A stretch of DNA of 21,481 bases from Saccoglossus kowalevskii (lineage: Eukaryota; Hemichordata; Enteropneusta; Harrimaniidae), in contig NW_003131858.1 in NCBI RefSeq assembly GCF_000003605.2, forward strand, positions 147,182 to 168,662, written 5' to 3'. This document shows positions 9,324-16,551 of the stretch, in pieces. The notes under the pieces are model-generated. The model was not told the DNA's origin, searched no databases, and worked only from the letters and a program-made list of their open reading frames with translations. Numbering within the stretch: position 1 is the first letter of the stretch; every line of letters starts with the position of its first letter. The translations under genes were made by a program, and so were the position numbers.

Positions 9324-10736
9324 TGCATGATGTGTTTAGTGTTTCGTAACTTTATGTTACATGCATTTATAATCATTTGATATATTCTATAATGTGTAAT
9401 CGCTGCAAAGTGTGTCGCCCACGTTTTGATAATTAATTGGGATTGAGTGTCTCCTAAAAGCTGTCACATGATTCAATGTGTTTCTTGTTGACTAAATGTA
9501 CAAAATGAGTGTCTAGTCAACATGTTATTACAAAATATGTGAATTATAGAAACTTTAAGTGTACGTTATCAAGAACACTGCAAGTAATTTCAAAGTGAAG
9601 ACAAATATATGTCTAGTTTTTCACAGGATCTGACATATGAATGTAACATTATTGAAAGTTAAACATTGAAACTATAATGATTTTTATTCTATTCCTTCAA
9701 CAGTTATTATTTTTTCATTATTATTTTGAAAGAACAAAAAATATATAAACACTTCTACTGACCACGTATATTTGTGTCCATGTTTCGTTGTCTTGGTTTT
9801 AGGATTTATTAAACAAGTTATCAAATGTACGCATTGTCGAAAATGAATACACGATATTTGTTTGATCTCCTGTGTGAGAATATAGTCCAGTGGATTTAGC
9901 CTTGAAACAGACCGAACCGGGAAGTAAATAGTACAATAACAAGTCTGGTATCAAAAGATTGGGAATTTTCGTAGATTTACCCAAAAAACCCAAGAACTGA
10001 CAACATGGACATTTTTTTTACACGGGTAGAAGTAAGGGGTAGTGTTTTTCATACATTTTAGATTTTTCTTATATTTATATTTTGTAATTAATATTACTTA
10101 CAGCCTATACATTATTTCATATACATATTGCTAGTGTTTTCTATACATTTTATTTAGATAAACTGAAGAAACTATCCGCCAGTTATAGAACAGAAATTTG
10201 CTGATGTCGGCATTTTTTTACAAATATTTTAGTCCTGTCAAGTAGTCAATCAATCTTTTGTTTTACCAGAGACCTATCGGTATCACAAAATATATTTCCT
10301 TTATTTCTAAGCACCAGTATCTAGGTAACTAAGCACTGTTTGAACTTTTAATGACTCGTTCGTAATTTCCAGGGGTTTTTAAACACCCTGATATTCCCAA
10401 AATATAGCTAAATCCTGTTACACAAGGAAGATTGTTATGGTAAGCTTATAAACACTTTGCTATGATTACTTCTCTTTTTCCTTTCTGTATAAATTGCTCT
10501 GTTTAGAGTAATCATATTTTAATATAGTTAAAACAAGCCATTTGCAAGTCCTTGCATGACTGTCAATCATAATAAATTGCTCAATTTGTAAAGTCAATGT
10601 GACTTTTGATTATCATCACGTGATTTTCTTATATGGCAACCAGCACAAGATTAGGTCCCGATTTTTTTGCTTGAACACGCGTACTAAACGCGTCTTGTTT
10701 ATGCTTGTGATAAATTTAGATTCAATATCCACAAAG

Positions 10737-12690
10737 ATGAGTGGGTACAGCAGGTACAAGCCAGACTTCACAGCATCAGCAGTTTTACATGATTTCCACT
10801 ATCATGCAAAGAATGAAGCCCCTGAATCCGAAAAAAATCGACTCATTAAAACGGTTGCACAACTTATTAAAAATGATATAAAATCGTGCAGCACAACTAG
10901 TCATTTACACCCAAACTGAGAAAGCCACCTTCCATCCGCCCTGAAAGTTTTACTTCAAGATATGTTTGTTGGAAAAGACACTGATGTTAAGGTGGCATCC
11001 GTAGGGCAGGCCATCATGCAGTCAGTTCGCCCACGAGTTACAGTGGTTACACTGCAAATTGGAATTGCTGTTCAAATACATCGCCAGTTTGGCTCATGAT
11101 TTCCCATTGATTCTCTCCATAGTCATGGGTTTTGTTCATCATATGCAGAGGTACAGAAGTTTGAACGTAGTGCCACTTGTCACCAAGTAACTGACATTCC
11201 TGGTTGTTCACAAGCGGACATTTTAAACAACATGTAGCTGATAATGTTGACCATAATGTCCGAACCATTAACGGGCTGAACACGTTTCATGGTATGGTCA
11301 TAATAACGACCATAACACCAGAGATATTGTGGAACAACACCATACCTAAAGTTCATGTCACATCTGAGGATATGGTTTCTGTTGCAAAAGTCAATATTAG
11401 ATATTATAAGCAGTTATCAAAGGACATGGCCAAATTAAAGTATGTCCAATTACCCAGTGATAGCAGGTGATGATACATTGAATGTGGATCTTCTGTGGAA
11501 AATTGCTTGGTTGTTACAACCATCTAGACCATTTTGGAATAGTTTTATGCAAATGGTACATCAAGGTCCTCATCCTGGGGTCTCATCTATAATGTTCATG
11601 CCAATCGATATGAAATCAACTGATGAACCATGTATTTTCTCAACTATGTGCTTCATCAGTGAACAAGCTAAGAAGTATGATTTAACACCAGTGCCCACCT
11701 TCGACCAGCCTTTATGGTGGAAATCACTGGAAATCCAACAGAATGAGCCCAGAAGTAGCAGTGTGAAGAATATTGTTCTTCGACTGGGTGGTCTGCATGT
11801 GCAAATGAGTTTTCTGGGTTGCATTGGACATTTAATGAGTGGATCTGGACTTAAGGAACTATTGGAGACTGATGTTGGACATATGTTGAGTAGCAAGGCC
11901 ATTTCCAGGGCTATCAGGGGTCACATTCTAGTGGAAGCAGCATTATATGCATTGCTTTTGTCAATGATGTATGACCTTCTATTACCAAGAAAAGAATCAA
12001 GAAGAAATGAGTTGAAAGAAGCAGGGACCATCCCAGAGACACTGCTTGCAAACGAGACAGAATATAATTGGTTTGTTCAGAGGAAGTACTGACTCTAATC
12101 CAGGAAAAAAATCAACCAATTCAAGGAAACACTCGCTTTCCTTAGAACATCAAAGTTATGGTTACAGTACATAGAGATGATTGAAATACTTCAGCAGTTC
12201 ATTAAGGCTGAAAGAACTGGTAACTGGTCTCTCCATCTAAAAGCTTTTCCAGACATGCTTCCATAATTTGCTGAATCTGGCCATAATCTTTATGCAAAGT
12301 CAGTATACATATATTTTCAGATTATGTCAAAACTACCAGAAAGTAGTGCTGATGTATTTCGATCATTTCTGAATGGATACCATGTTGTTAGGCGGACGTA
12401 CAGGTACTGGGCAGGTATATCGACTGATCTTGCATTTGCTAATGTTGATGAGGAGTGTCAAAACAAGTGGTGGGCTGACAAGAGGTAGAGGTATGTCAGA
12501 AATACAACATACCGTTTGGCTACTCTCAACACCTGTATGTGCAGAAGTCAACCGTGCAATGCAAGAGTTCACTGGTGTTTCTTACATCACAAGTGAGCAA
12601 CACAAAGCGAGTACAAAGACCAGGCAAATTAGAGATCATAATGACCTAATGGAGTTGGTACAGTTTCTTTGTGCAACAACTCTTCACTAT
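10737..12690 (+). other. N-terminal and central part of the element protein, no known domain
   Basis: The start chosen is ATG 10737 (MSGYSRYKP), because family-like sequence begins there; the same frame is open back to 10599 but looks non-coding. The first block runs through in-frame TGAs at 10917 and 11097, with clear continuation after each (LPSALKVLLQDMF, then FPIDSLHSHGFCSSY). A frame change near 11225 leads to HVADNVDHNVRTING. The next block holds the FDQPLWWKSL, IVLRLGG and SFLGCIGHLMSGSGL stretches, then three stops (12090, 12096, 12264). KLWLQYIEMIEILQQFIKAE follows the first two and AESGHNLYAKS the third. A frame change near 12425 joins the WAGISTDL stretch to LMRSVKTSGGLTRGRGM. I assign no fold or function to this roughly 650-residue region. 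Its highly conserved tryptophans and glycines suggest a globular, probably catalytic or structural role in intact copies. Confidence 0.65.
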
Positions 12691-13034
12691 GTAGTATAGC
12701 TACTGGATTTGTTGTTGATGACACAGTAAATGTCGATAATGCTAGGTCTATTGGTGCTGAAATAATAAAGTATATGATTAGAAAAAGCGCGAGTGATTTT
12801 TCAATTACTAAAGAACAGGCTAAAAAATTAAGCGTGAAAACATCATTAAAGCTTGATGCAGATGAAGTACAAGTTGATCCCCAGTTGTTATTTCAAAGAC
12901 TTGTTTTCATTGCAAAGGGAATTGTATCAACAAACGAGTTGTCCAGTCTTTTCACCTATGAGCTGTGTACTCATCCACCAGCAATGTTTGCCTCTGATGG
13001 ACTGATGCGGGAAACAAACAAACCAGCTTTAGTC

Positions 13035-13730
13035 GAAGCAGTCTGGAAACGTGTTGGTCCCATTACTAGTGACATGTCCATTAAGGTTAAGTATGTTATT
13101 GATGAAGGTTCACTTTTACAGAGAATTCCATGGCTACGAAGACTAACATATAAGGGCATCTGCAAACTTTACCTTGACTACATTGACCGCAAATGTGGTA
13201 AAGAATCAACAACTCATCTTAGGCGTTCAATAGGGAAAATGTCTACTAGTGTTAACTGTGATTCTGACATGGTTATGAATATGAAGAAACAACAGTTCCT
13301 TGAAAATGCAGCAAATAGGCAGCGGTTCATTAATAATATCCTGGGAACCGAACTAGAAATGAATCAATGTTCGACATGCTGAAGAAGATGCAGATGTCCT
13401 TATAGTGATGACAGCTGTAGACTCTGCTGTCAATGCACCAATGGTAGTTGTAGGTGAGGACACAGACTTGTTAGTATTGTTGATCTACCATGCCAACTTA
13501 AATAGTCACAAAATGTATTTAAAACCAGAGGCACGGCGAAATACAAAAAACGAAGTCAAAGTGTGGGACATGCCAAAGACAAACTAGACCACTTGTTTGC
13601 CAAAACATATTATTTATACATGTTGTCTTGGGCTGTGACACCACATCCAGCATGTATGTCTTAGGAAAGGGCCTGTCCTTGAAAAAATCAAACCAACAAG
13701 CAGAAGCAATGTCATGTTTCAGTGTTTGAT
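13035..13730 (+). other. region resembling a FEN1/XPG-type PIN nuclease core
   Basis: Four stretches occur in the order of the FEN/XPG acidic ligands. YVIDEGSLLQ (Asp codon 13101) fits the first Asp near a PIN N-terminus. HAEEDADV (13375-13398) fits the EAEA helix. VVVGEDTDLLVLL (Asp codons 13459 and 13465) fits the TEDxD motif. VLGCDTTS (Asp codon 13637) fits the GxDY motif. The spacing is also compatible. The second ligand normally sits in a VFDG-like strand about 30 residues after the first helix. It is absent here: the text goes from KCG straight to KESTTHLRRS near 13198-13206, which I read as a small deletion. Frame changes near 13366 and 13590 interrupt the region. The motif assignment is my inference; it was not checked by profile search. 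Confidence 0.5.
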
Positions 13731-14007
13731 GCTCCGAAAGACGACATTGTGGAGTCAAGAGAAAAAGCGTTGGTCCTTTTATATGGGGGCAAGTCCGATG
13801 AAACATTGGATTTACTCAGAATGGGAATTTTTTTCAGAGAGTTGCTACAAGCGTTACATCTGCACTGCAGGTACCATAGTCAACGTGTATACCCTAGGTC
13901 TGTGTGGAAAGGGCAATCCAGAAGAATGGGGATGGAAAGAGAAGAAGGGAAAATTGCTTGCTATCCAAACTGACAAGCCTCCTGCACCTGACAAATTACT
14001 AAATGTT

Positions 14008-14160
14008 ATCAGATGTAAATGTAAAGCAGACTGTCGAACGACACGTTGCACATGTAGAAAACATGGACTAAAATGCTCCCCCATATGTGATGAATGTAGA
14101 GGTGTAAGCTGTAGAAATTCACACAATCTGGATCTTGATGATGATGATGATCAACTATAA
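14008..14160 (+). other. C-terminal CXC-like cysteine-rich domain and poly-Asp tail
   Basis: The last block contains nine Cys in about 35 residues, in the pattern IRCKCKADC..CTCRKHGLKC..ICDEC..VSC. This resembles the tesmin/TSO1 CXC zinc-binding, DNA-binding motif in its CxC-x3-C...CxC-x5-C layout. It is preceded by NPEEWGW and the PPAPDKLL linker. The protein ends in an acidic run (LDLDDDDDQL, encoded partly by a GAT repeat) and TAA at 14158-14160. In known CXC proteins paired Cys clusters bind zinc and DNA; only one such cluster is visible here. It is the least damaged part of the relict. Confidence 0.6.
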
Positions 14161-14202
14161 TATTATAAACTTAGAATTATACTGACTTGCTTTGATGAAT
14201 GG

Positions 14203-14220
14203 CCAACCAACCAACCAACC
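14203..14220. repeat. (CCAA)n microsatellite
   Basis: Four and a half perfect CCAA units, 43 bases after the stop codon of the element relict, in its presumed 3'UTR. Confidence 0.9.
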
Positions 14221-14679
14221 TATTTTCATACCAATCCTAAACAGAATGAAGTTATGACAAAACACAAGTCTGATCAGGAAAGTTTGTAACTGTCTCATTC
14301 TACCACAAACTTTGAGATATTTATTGATATAATCGATACATCACAAATCTTGGCAATCACTTTTTTGAAATTACCACATCACACTTGATATAAGCCCCCT
14401 TCATTGTGTGATCATTGCCACATTCCGCATACCTGTAACTGTGAAATGTCCTTCATATATATTACCACTTTATCACCAATCTTTACATGATACAATCACA
14501 TATACTTTGATAAACACGATTCATTTGTATGTTTTATGCACATGTACAATTTGTGGGAGGGGCGAGTTAGTGAGACCGACTGCAGCAAAGTATCATGTTG
14601 ATTTGGCGAATGATGGAGACTAAATATGCCCCAAATATTCCTGAAAAATTGTTTTTAATAATAAAAATGATATATGAAC

Positions 14680-14685
14680 AATAAA
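14680..14685 (+). terminator. candidate polyadenylation signal for the element
   Basis: A canonical AATAAA lies about 520 bases after the element stop. Others at 14660 and 14941 are equally possible, and in AT-rich DNA such hexamers are common. No downstream GT-rich element stands out. Confidence 0.2.
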
Positions 14686-15164
14686 CGCAAATTTTTCTAT
14701 ATTGTGTAGAATTAATACTGATAAAATGCCAATGAAACAAGACTAATACCAGACCCTGTATATTTCTGAAAATATCACCATTTGGTGGCGCTGTACCTGC
14801 ATATAGAGGGCGCTATTTGCCTCACCATGTGCAAACAAATGTTTGGCTGACTAAGTATGATAAGTGGTGTAAGTGTGATGAAGCGTGTTATATTGACCAT
14901 TATTCCATATGCATTTATATATGTACATCTTTACTCCATCAATAAAATGGCTTAATATTTCCATTATATGGGCACTATTAATACCTGAAAAAATCAACTT
15001 TCTCTTTCTCCGATTTTGATAGACTTTTGATATGTTGTTTATAGATGTCTGCTGTTGCTAAATCTGCAAAGAAACTTTCTTTTGCAATTTTGTCCGGGTT
15101 GACCTAATAATCAAATTAGATTGAGCTTTCAAAAGACATCAGCTTCACAAGGTCGACGAACTTC

Positions 15165-15201
15165 TGACGTCAGCAATGACGTCATCATATATATGACATC
15201 A
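15165..15201. promoter_or_regulatory. cluster of CRE/ATF-type sites
   Basis: Two perfect palindromic CRE octamers TGACGTCA (15165-15172 and 15177-15184) start 12 bases apart, close to one helical turn. A one-mismatch copy, TGACATCA, lies at 15194-15201. CREB/ATF-family bZIP dimers bind this octamer. The cluster lies about 540 bases upstream of the GPCR pseudogene start and about 1 kb after the element stop, so it could belong to either, or to a repeat. Confidence 0.45.
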
Positions 15202-15740
15202 TCATGCATGTTGCAGTGATCTGTTACAGATGCAGATTTTTATTTCATTCATTGTTTTTAAAATATTGTTGCTATACAGTAATACATTTCAATGGTATTT
15301 AGTGGTTATTGCATGGTCGGATATCTGCGGTAGGGAAAATCAGTGCTAAAAACAATAAATCTTCAACATGCTCTAAAAAAAATTGCCCGATGGTTTAGGT
15401 CTTGGGGTTTTTTTTGGTCATTCTCAATGACCTTAGCCAACGTTTGAAACAAAATTCGCTAATGTACTATTTTATTCCGGGTCAAACCCTAAATCCACTG
15501 GACTAATACAATGTGAACTAATTTCACATTCACTATTTCCTATCACTGTTCACTTGATCGCACAAGTGGCCGCTGAGGGGGTTTTATTATGGATGCTTTG
15601 ATGATAAATATCAGGCCCATTCATTCGTATTGCGTTTTTCTTGGCCGACCGGGCTCGTTCTGTTATACGTTCAGTGATTTTAACTTCTAGACACCTATGA
15701 TGATGTTTTATCTACGTTTGCTTACCAGCCGTGTTCTACA

Positions 15741-16551
15741 ATGGATTTTACCAATGTAAGCGATTATGTTACTATGTTACATTATACTTCGCTACCTAGG
15801 AATGACATCGCTGCCCAATTTGTACACCTTACACATGGCGTCTGCGGATTTCCCTTTTTCTACTCAGATTGCCTTTTCTGACGTATTTTTACACAACGAA
15901 GCGGTGGATATAATGTGCAAGGTAGTGATGGGAATTGACGGATGTAATATGTTTACTGCTATATCCACTTTGACTGTGATGGCTATTGACCGATACATCG
16001 TCCACATTGTCTGGTCTAAAAACTACCGAACTGCCCTTAAAACTAAAGTGGTGTGTGCTGCGACTTGGTTAGCCGCGTTCGCCATCACCGAACAATTGCG
16101 GTTGTACTCAGTGACACAAAACGTTCAATGGGGTGACGGTCTGTCACGTCATCTGCCCGATGTTAGTCGGACAGCTTTTTATCATATACGCGTTTCTCTT
16201 TGAATTAGCTCTAACGATAATATGCATTATAGTTTACTACTGCTACGCCGTCGACAGTTTCACGTCGGTAGAATCGGCGCGATGGTACCGATTGCGGTGG
16301 TTCTGTTCGTTATATGTTGGTTTCCTTTTTGGATTATAAGACTACTGTGGCTCTCCGGTGATCACAGTCACACGTTAGTGTTACAGGTCTCGTACTACGT
16401 CAGTGTATTCCTGAGCTCCATAAATAGCTGTTTAAATCCGCTAGTGTACGTCTATTTCAAGCAAGATTTCCAAGACGTGATTAAACACTGCATATGTTAT
16501 TGCAAGTCACATAAGGAAACAATGTCTAGGTTACGATGTTCATCATGCTGA
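15741..16551 (+). pseudogene. rhodopsin-like peptide GPCR pseudogene, somatostatin/opioid/galanin/allatostatin-C type
   Basis: Class A GPCR hallmarks appear in order. After ATG 15741 (MDFTNVSDY, with an N-glycosylation site) the frame changes to LCYIILRYLG, the end of TM1. TM2 follows with MASADF (Asp2.50 codon 15847), then Cys3.25 (15916), TM3 with DRY (15988-15996) and TM4. ECL2 has the second disulfide Cys (CHVICP). TM5 is FIIYAFLFELALTIICI from 16178. TM6 has CWFPF (16315-16329) and TM7 has NSCLNPLVY (NPxxY box 16435-16449). Helix 8 is Cys-rich, and the stop is at 16549. Damage: about 30 residues of TM1 are missing, the usual Trp-rich ECL1 end is shortened, and frames change near 15766, in ECL2 around 16130-16178 and in ICL3 near 16250. 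The subfamily call rests on the ILRY/LPNLY, MAIDRY and CWFPFW contexts. It is intronless, which is common for this group, so retrocopy origin is undecided. An intact version would be a Gi/o-type plasma-membrane neuropeptide receptor; this copy cannot encode seven helices. Confidence 0.85.

Follow-up and report, generated by a model that had tools for sequence, protein, structure and literature searches.

The stretch of Saccoglossus kowalevskii DNA analyzed here (21,481 nucleotides, in the following called the window) contains what we consider a defunct 5.6-kb copy of a repeated animal DNA transposon, the AcademX lineage of Academ being its most probable assignment. Intact relatives of this copy are predicted to encode one long protein, consisting of an N-terminal DDD/E-type transposase region, a FEN1/XPG-like PIN core (seven acidic metal ligands plus a helix-hairpin), and a C-terminal cysteine cluster. 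We assign this reading a probability of roughly 80%; its statements on fold and function are derived from sequence comparison.

Terminal repeats and target-site duplications

Spanning 5,623 bp (positions 9883–15505 of the window), the element ends in inverted repeats and is flanked by a target duplication of 3 bp. The left repeat (9883–9955, forward strand) begins with the 17-nt outer end TAGTCCAGTGGATTTAG (9883–9899), which is perfect, its complement lying at 15489–15505 within the right repeat (15443–15505, reverse strand). The inner part of the repeats is weaker, with 75% complementarity between 9916–9955 and 15443–15482. The trinucleotide ATA flanks both ends, at 9880–9882 on the left and at 15506–15508 on the right.

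We searched the source genome, that of S. kowalevskii (572,110,611 bases in 4,830 contigs), for the terminal 17-mer and obtained 31 exact matches, compared with none for the reversed control. Fourteen of the 31 matches form seven pairs of ends facing each other, with the window copy among them; the six other paired elements range from 3,770 to 5,648 bp in length. The 3-bp flanks are identical in 7/7 paired copies (TTA, TTA, TCA, ATA, TTT, TTG and TAT), a count that covers the exact pairs, the remaining 17 ends having no exact partner. From the inverted repeats and these identical flanks it follows that the element is a transposon making 3-bp duplications. Inverted repeats at both ends and a target duplication of fixed length (3 bp) are the features of a DNA transposon, and they rule out a retroelement or a virus as the identity of the element.

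An internally deleted copy of 500 bp (locus L068, 1018–1517) has kept both ends, the left one with one mismatch to the 17-mer, and carries GTT on each side. It is probably a non-autonomous derivative. Some 250 bp beyond the right end of the transposon, the window contains a rhodopsin-type GPCR sequence (7tm_1; 15760–16551, forward strand), whose two halves matched with E-values of 5.4e-17 and 4.2e-11. Its frame is broken by one TGA (16201–16203), which marks a pseudogene, an error or an exon boundary.

A candidate transposase region in one frame with motif I

Two pieces of the transposase region were identified on the forward strand of the window copy. The piece at 11195–11470 contains ADNVDHN (11237–11257) with a candidate first catalytic Asp, and the piece at 11439–12092 contains TFDQPLWWK (11697–11723) with a candidate second one. 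Past the candidate Glu region lies another piece on the same strand (12373–12699); the sequence that reads DLxIEQxLMRS in relatives is broken here by a frame change near 12435–12450. A 245-aa open frame (12645–13382, forward strand) covers the part upstream of the nuclease core together with motif I, VIDEGSLL (13095–13118).

In the related locus L025, a single open frame of 830 aa runs from the transposase region through motif I, hence both belong to one protein. Numbered along this frame, D89 (22/22), E107 (21/22), D132 (22/23), D135 (21/23) and H148 (22/23) are conserved, as are D291 (16/16), H322 (14/16), D580 (21/23) and E584 (19/24). Judging from conservation, our guess is that the DDD/E triad might consist of D132 or D135, D291 and E584, the last of these preceded by a long insertion; E584 is the weakest of these candidate columns. 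The lower rows of the transposase alignment A3 are poor, and it supports no claim.

Acidic motifs in the window and in related copies

The original prediction named four motifs, IDEGSLL, HAEEDADV, GEDTDLLVLL and LGCDTTS, in this order. All of them were found in order on the forward strand, though in three reading frames (positions modulo 3 of 0, 1, 1 and 2). Downstream of motif I, HAEEDADV (motif III, 13375–13398) is the putative equivalent of the EAEA motif of FEN1 and GEDTDLLVLL (motif IV, 13453–13482) that of E-D-x-D. LGCDTTS (13628–13648) opens motif V, LGCDTTSSMYVLGKG (13628–13672), the putative equivalent of G-x-D-Y and the following hairpin. Because the motifs lie in three frames with intervening stops, the window copy represents a decayed gene, in which no single open frame holds all four.

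A loose pattern of order and spacing, composed after the motifs had been seen, matched once in the window, at the motif site, and not at all on the reverse strand; in 1,636 dinucleotide-preserving shuffles it had no match on either strand. These chance counts are outweighed by the recurrence of the motifs in related copies elsewhere in the S. kowalevskii genome, which rules out chance peptides in unrelated frames.

Using the 245-aa window piece as a query against this genome, we obtained at least 67 matches including itself, the others having 26–86% identity. The open frame of a distant relative, L027, yielded at least 84 matches including its own place. Both numbers are lower bounds on matches, with several per copy, and are not copy numbers. 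The related copies share a motif set that reads, in order, VIDGGSLLxRxPW, VFDGYxxxxSTKDxxHxRR, (G/E)DADxxI, EDTDLLVLL and GCDTTSRxxGxGK. The second of these motifs was missed in the original prediction, and the window copy lacks it: compared with the relative L043, 15 residues are absent at the junction 13208/13209 (forward strand), the site of VFDGY...STKD. Within motif I, the window copy reads IDEG, and the third place is G in the other 24 of 25 loci.

Downstream of motif V, the window copy retains a conserved piece, EKALVLLYGGKSDETLD (13701–13850, forward strand, frame shifted), and a C-terminal cysteine cluster, CKCKADCRTTRCTCRKHGLKCSPICDECRGVSC (14014–14112, forward strand). Similar clusters occur in L043, L038 and L077. 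Pfam gave nothing above its cut-off for this cluster; judged by eye, it and its counterparts in relatives resemble a CXC/TSO1-type pattern, and it would bind zinc.

FEN1 has seven metal ligands (D34, D86, E158, E160, D179, D181 and D233). In the related copies, seven acidic residues stand in the same order as these ligands, motif II being absent from the window copy. The putative ligands are conserved as follows, given as the number of loci, window included, among those with a residue at that place: the D of VIDGG in 23/25, the D of FDGY in 19/20, the two positions of DAD in 20/22 and 22/22, those of EDTD in 23/25 and 22/25, and the D of GCD in 24/25. The first profile comprised 25 loci and the second 27, counting the window. 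Two loci, L069 and L054, were left out as second views of L043 and L022; L045 and L046, likewise marked for exclusion, gave no rows.

Conservation of these Asp/Glu positions among homologs, on which the original prediction depended, is seen across the loci of the S. kowalevskii genome. With the window left out, the mean fraction of the top residue was 0.93 over the seven ligand columns versus 0.59 over the other columns of 226. This conservation was reached in 0 of 20,000 permutations over all columns and in 0 of 20,000 draws among the 29 columns with D or E on top, a test that is not fully independent, since these very motifs had served as anchors of the alignments. High conservation is also seen in three other acidic columns (N56, 14/15; N1, 11/12; C150, 12/15).

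Four relatives with 33–34% identity to the window piece (L026, L027, L028 and L033) are surrounded by other inverted repeats, about 4.4–5.1 kb apart. A rough search for long inverted repeats in 21 loci gave candidates in eight and settled no duplication, clear duplications not being seen at these four loci. Because of their different inverted repeats, several distinct element families may exist in the genome. Two much diverged relatives were noted in addition. L076 (1339–2190) reads HEEADVKII, CEDTYVFVL and LSGCDTVAQCFGVGKS, and L075 (757–2112) has 31% identity to the transposase-side region; together they perhaps represent another lineage of such elements in the S. kowalevskii genome. Searches for relatives in phages and plasmids (tblastn), viral contigs and contigs of prokaryote genomes returned nothing usable. 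A looser C-terminal pattern matched in 10 prokaryote-genome and six viral contigs (L001–L016), which were left out of all results.

Comparison with FEN1 and XPG

The XPG_I profile has three matches in the S. kowalevskii genome. By our reading, one of them, L079, continued in L081, is the FEN1 of this species, and L078 looks like XPG. A search for FEN1 sequences to enlarge the alignment, covering viral contigs, plasmids and phages, returned one archaeal FEN1. It is a flap endonuclease gene (L083, 667–1626) on a haloarchaeal plasmid of Salinibaculum sp. KK48, in which the EAEA motif is aligned as AGEA.

The comparison anchored on the archaeal FEN1 by hhalign came out weak, with a score of 19.0 that was reached by 5/200 shuffles, the largest being 27.0; because of this, a comparison anchored on the S. 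kowalevskii FEN1 was tried second. Here, the family (23 merged rows) was compared with a three-row alignment, giving a score of 22.05, a P-value of 0.014 and a probability of 3.2%. In 300 column shuffles, the mean score was 12.63 (sd 2.42) and the maximum 21.84, so that 0/300 reached 22.05, and the reversed profile scored 12.46. The pairs VFDG/VFDG, PGDAD/PGEAE, QDTDLL/EDMDSL and GCDSTSRIFGIGK/GCDYCDSIRGIGP were placed in register. Motif I lies outside this comparison because the first exon of FEN1 is absent from the alignment. GCDTTSRxxGxGK faces GCDYCDSIRGIGPKRA of the S. kowalevskii FEN1, which places a predicted hairpin after G-x-D in the family as well. On untrimmed alignments, the profile comparison was weaker still (0.5%), with the last motif alone aligned.

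Searches with the window pieces in Pfam, PHROGs, NCBIfam and PDB sequences named no PIN/XPG family, nor did Pfam for nine ORFs of related copies or the family profile when run against PDB sequences. The best Pfam matches were unrelated and below the cut-offs (POT1_C_insert, E 0.0025, for the window pieces; DUF4136, E 0.0095, for the ORFs of relatives), and the PDB sequence searches returned either nothing or unrelated proteins at E 0.13 or worse. As none of the database matches is significant, the case is built on motif order, register, shuffle controls and selective conservation. On these grounds we infer a PIN fold with a metal site in intact relatives and, with it, nuclease activity.

Two other explanations of the acidic motifs have to be weighed against this. 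They could belong to an unrelated fold (a different PIN-like branch, for instance, or a protein that is no nuclease) and resemble FEN1 by convergence, as the Pfam and PDB sequence searches without a match and the low hhalign probability might suggest. Five motifs, VFDG and the GCD...GxG hairpin among them, follow the FEN1 order at compatible spacing, which argues against convergence, as do a FEN1 profile score reached by none of the 300 shuffles and the selective conservation of the acidic ligand columns, and we regard this explanation as quite unlikely. Similarly improbable, in our estimate, is a PIN/FEN domain that is catalytically idle and has been kept to bind branched DNA during transposition. 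Ligands have been lost in some copies, the window copy included, and the divergent relative L076 reads EDTY for EDTD; yet across loci the ligand columns rank with the best conserved acidic ones, as is expected from selection for catalysis.

A FEN1/XPG-like core that is catalytically active remains our preferred explanation, and the nuclease idea of the original prediction is probably right. Its interpretation is supported in part: the conserved acidic ligands, the register with the species' own FEN1 from VFDG onward and the GxG hairpin speak in its favor, whereas Pfam, PHROGs, NCBIfam and PDB sequence searches named no PIN or XPG family. In the profile comparison that it had proposed, the score lay beyond all shuffles in one case but had a low probability, and the two other comparisons were weaker. 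Since Pfam is blind to the nine ORFs of relatives and to the window pieces, such proteins can easily pass as uncharacterized. Identifying them as products of transposons that carry a FEN1-like nuclease would allow a cleaner annotation, and it makes the role of a flap-type nuclease in transposition a testable question.

Assignment to Academ and possible mechanism

The nuclease of AcademX elements is called XPG. Our literature search found no text in which the words Academ and XPG occur together, and the Academ passages of three papers (PMC10799480, PMC9004415 and PMC9587614) do not mention a nuclease in Academ. According to the relevant passage of PMC10045372, AcademX transposons encode a nuclease and their duplications are 3 or 4 bp long, as against 9 or 10 bp in AcademH, a difference that seems tied to the encoded helicase and nuclease. 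The combination of transposase and nuclease is thus already in print in outline, and the suggestion in the original prediction that a catalytic role would be new for this family was overstated. In a study of bivalves, curated Academ elements, their lineage not given, have a mean length of 5,565 bp, and among molluscs Academ is described there as almost confined to bivalves (PMC10294476, Academ passage).

The 3-bp duplications of the present element fall within the range described for AcademX. Duplication length, a probable nuclease and an Academ-like size together make the element fit AcademX/Academ, a name given by described features. Because the name is based on such features (3-bp duplications, probable nuclease and a length of about 5.6 kb), membership in another superfamily, either an unnamed or a differently named DDD/E one, has to be considered as well for this transposon and its XPG-like nuclease. 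We consider it unlikely, as the AcademX description in PMC10045372 matches both the duplication length and the probable nuclease, and the Academ elements summarized in PMC10294476 are of similar size.

For the present element, the following mechanism can be envisaged. The DDD/E transposase region would cut and join the transferred strands (3′ ends) with a 3-bp stagger. The FEN1-like core would act on the 5′-ended strand, which could be a 5′ flap at the insertion gap or, at the ends of the element, the strand that is not transferred, and the cysteine cluster would bind zinc and DNA. A more specific version is speculative and, in our view, improbable: the FEN1-like domain might be a second-strand cutter that cleaves the 5′-ended strand three bases from the 3′-end cut of the DDD/E region, and might thereby set the 3-bp length of the duplication. 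A recruited flap-repair enzyme would then be the eukaryotic counterpart of TnsA in Tn7.

Relation to known systems

Among the described transposons, AcademX, with duplications of 3 or 4 bp, resembles the present element in duplication length (3 bp here) and in a probable nuclease accompanying a predicted DDD/E-type transposase region (PMC10045372, in the passage cited), and Academ elements of unspecified lineage resemble it in size, 5,623 bp being near the mean of 5,565 bp (PMC10294476, same passage). The window copy differs in being decayed and has the termini TAGTCCAGTGGATTTAG; it is likened to AcademX by published descriptions and not by a sequence match. AcademH belongs to the same superfamily, but is described as encoding a helicase and producing duplications of 9 or 10 bp instead of the 3 bp found here (PMC10045372). 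In the window pieces and ORFs tested, Pfam named no helicase.

With the cellular nucleases FEN1, XPG and EXO1, the family has in common the order in which the acidic motifs occur and their spacing, as well as VFDG and G-x-D followed by a GxG hairpin. It differs from them in being fused behind a transposase region, in having DAD for EAE and in having T for Y after GCD. It is also too distant for the Pfam models in the ORFs tested, and its nuclease activity is putative.

In Tn7, the DDE transposase TnsB is paired with an unrelated nuclease, TnsA, a separate bacterial protein with a restriction-enzyme-like fold. The element described here may resemble this arrangement, by analogy, in combining a DDE-type transposase with a second, unrelated nuclease. 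TnsA differs from the predicted nuclease of this element in its restriction-enzyme-like fold, in being a separate protein and in its bacterial origin.
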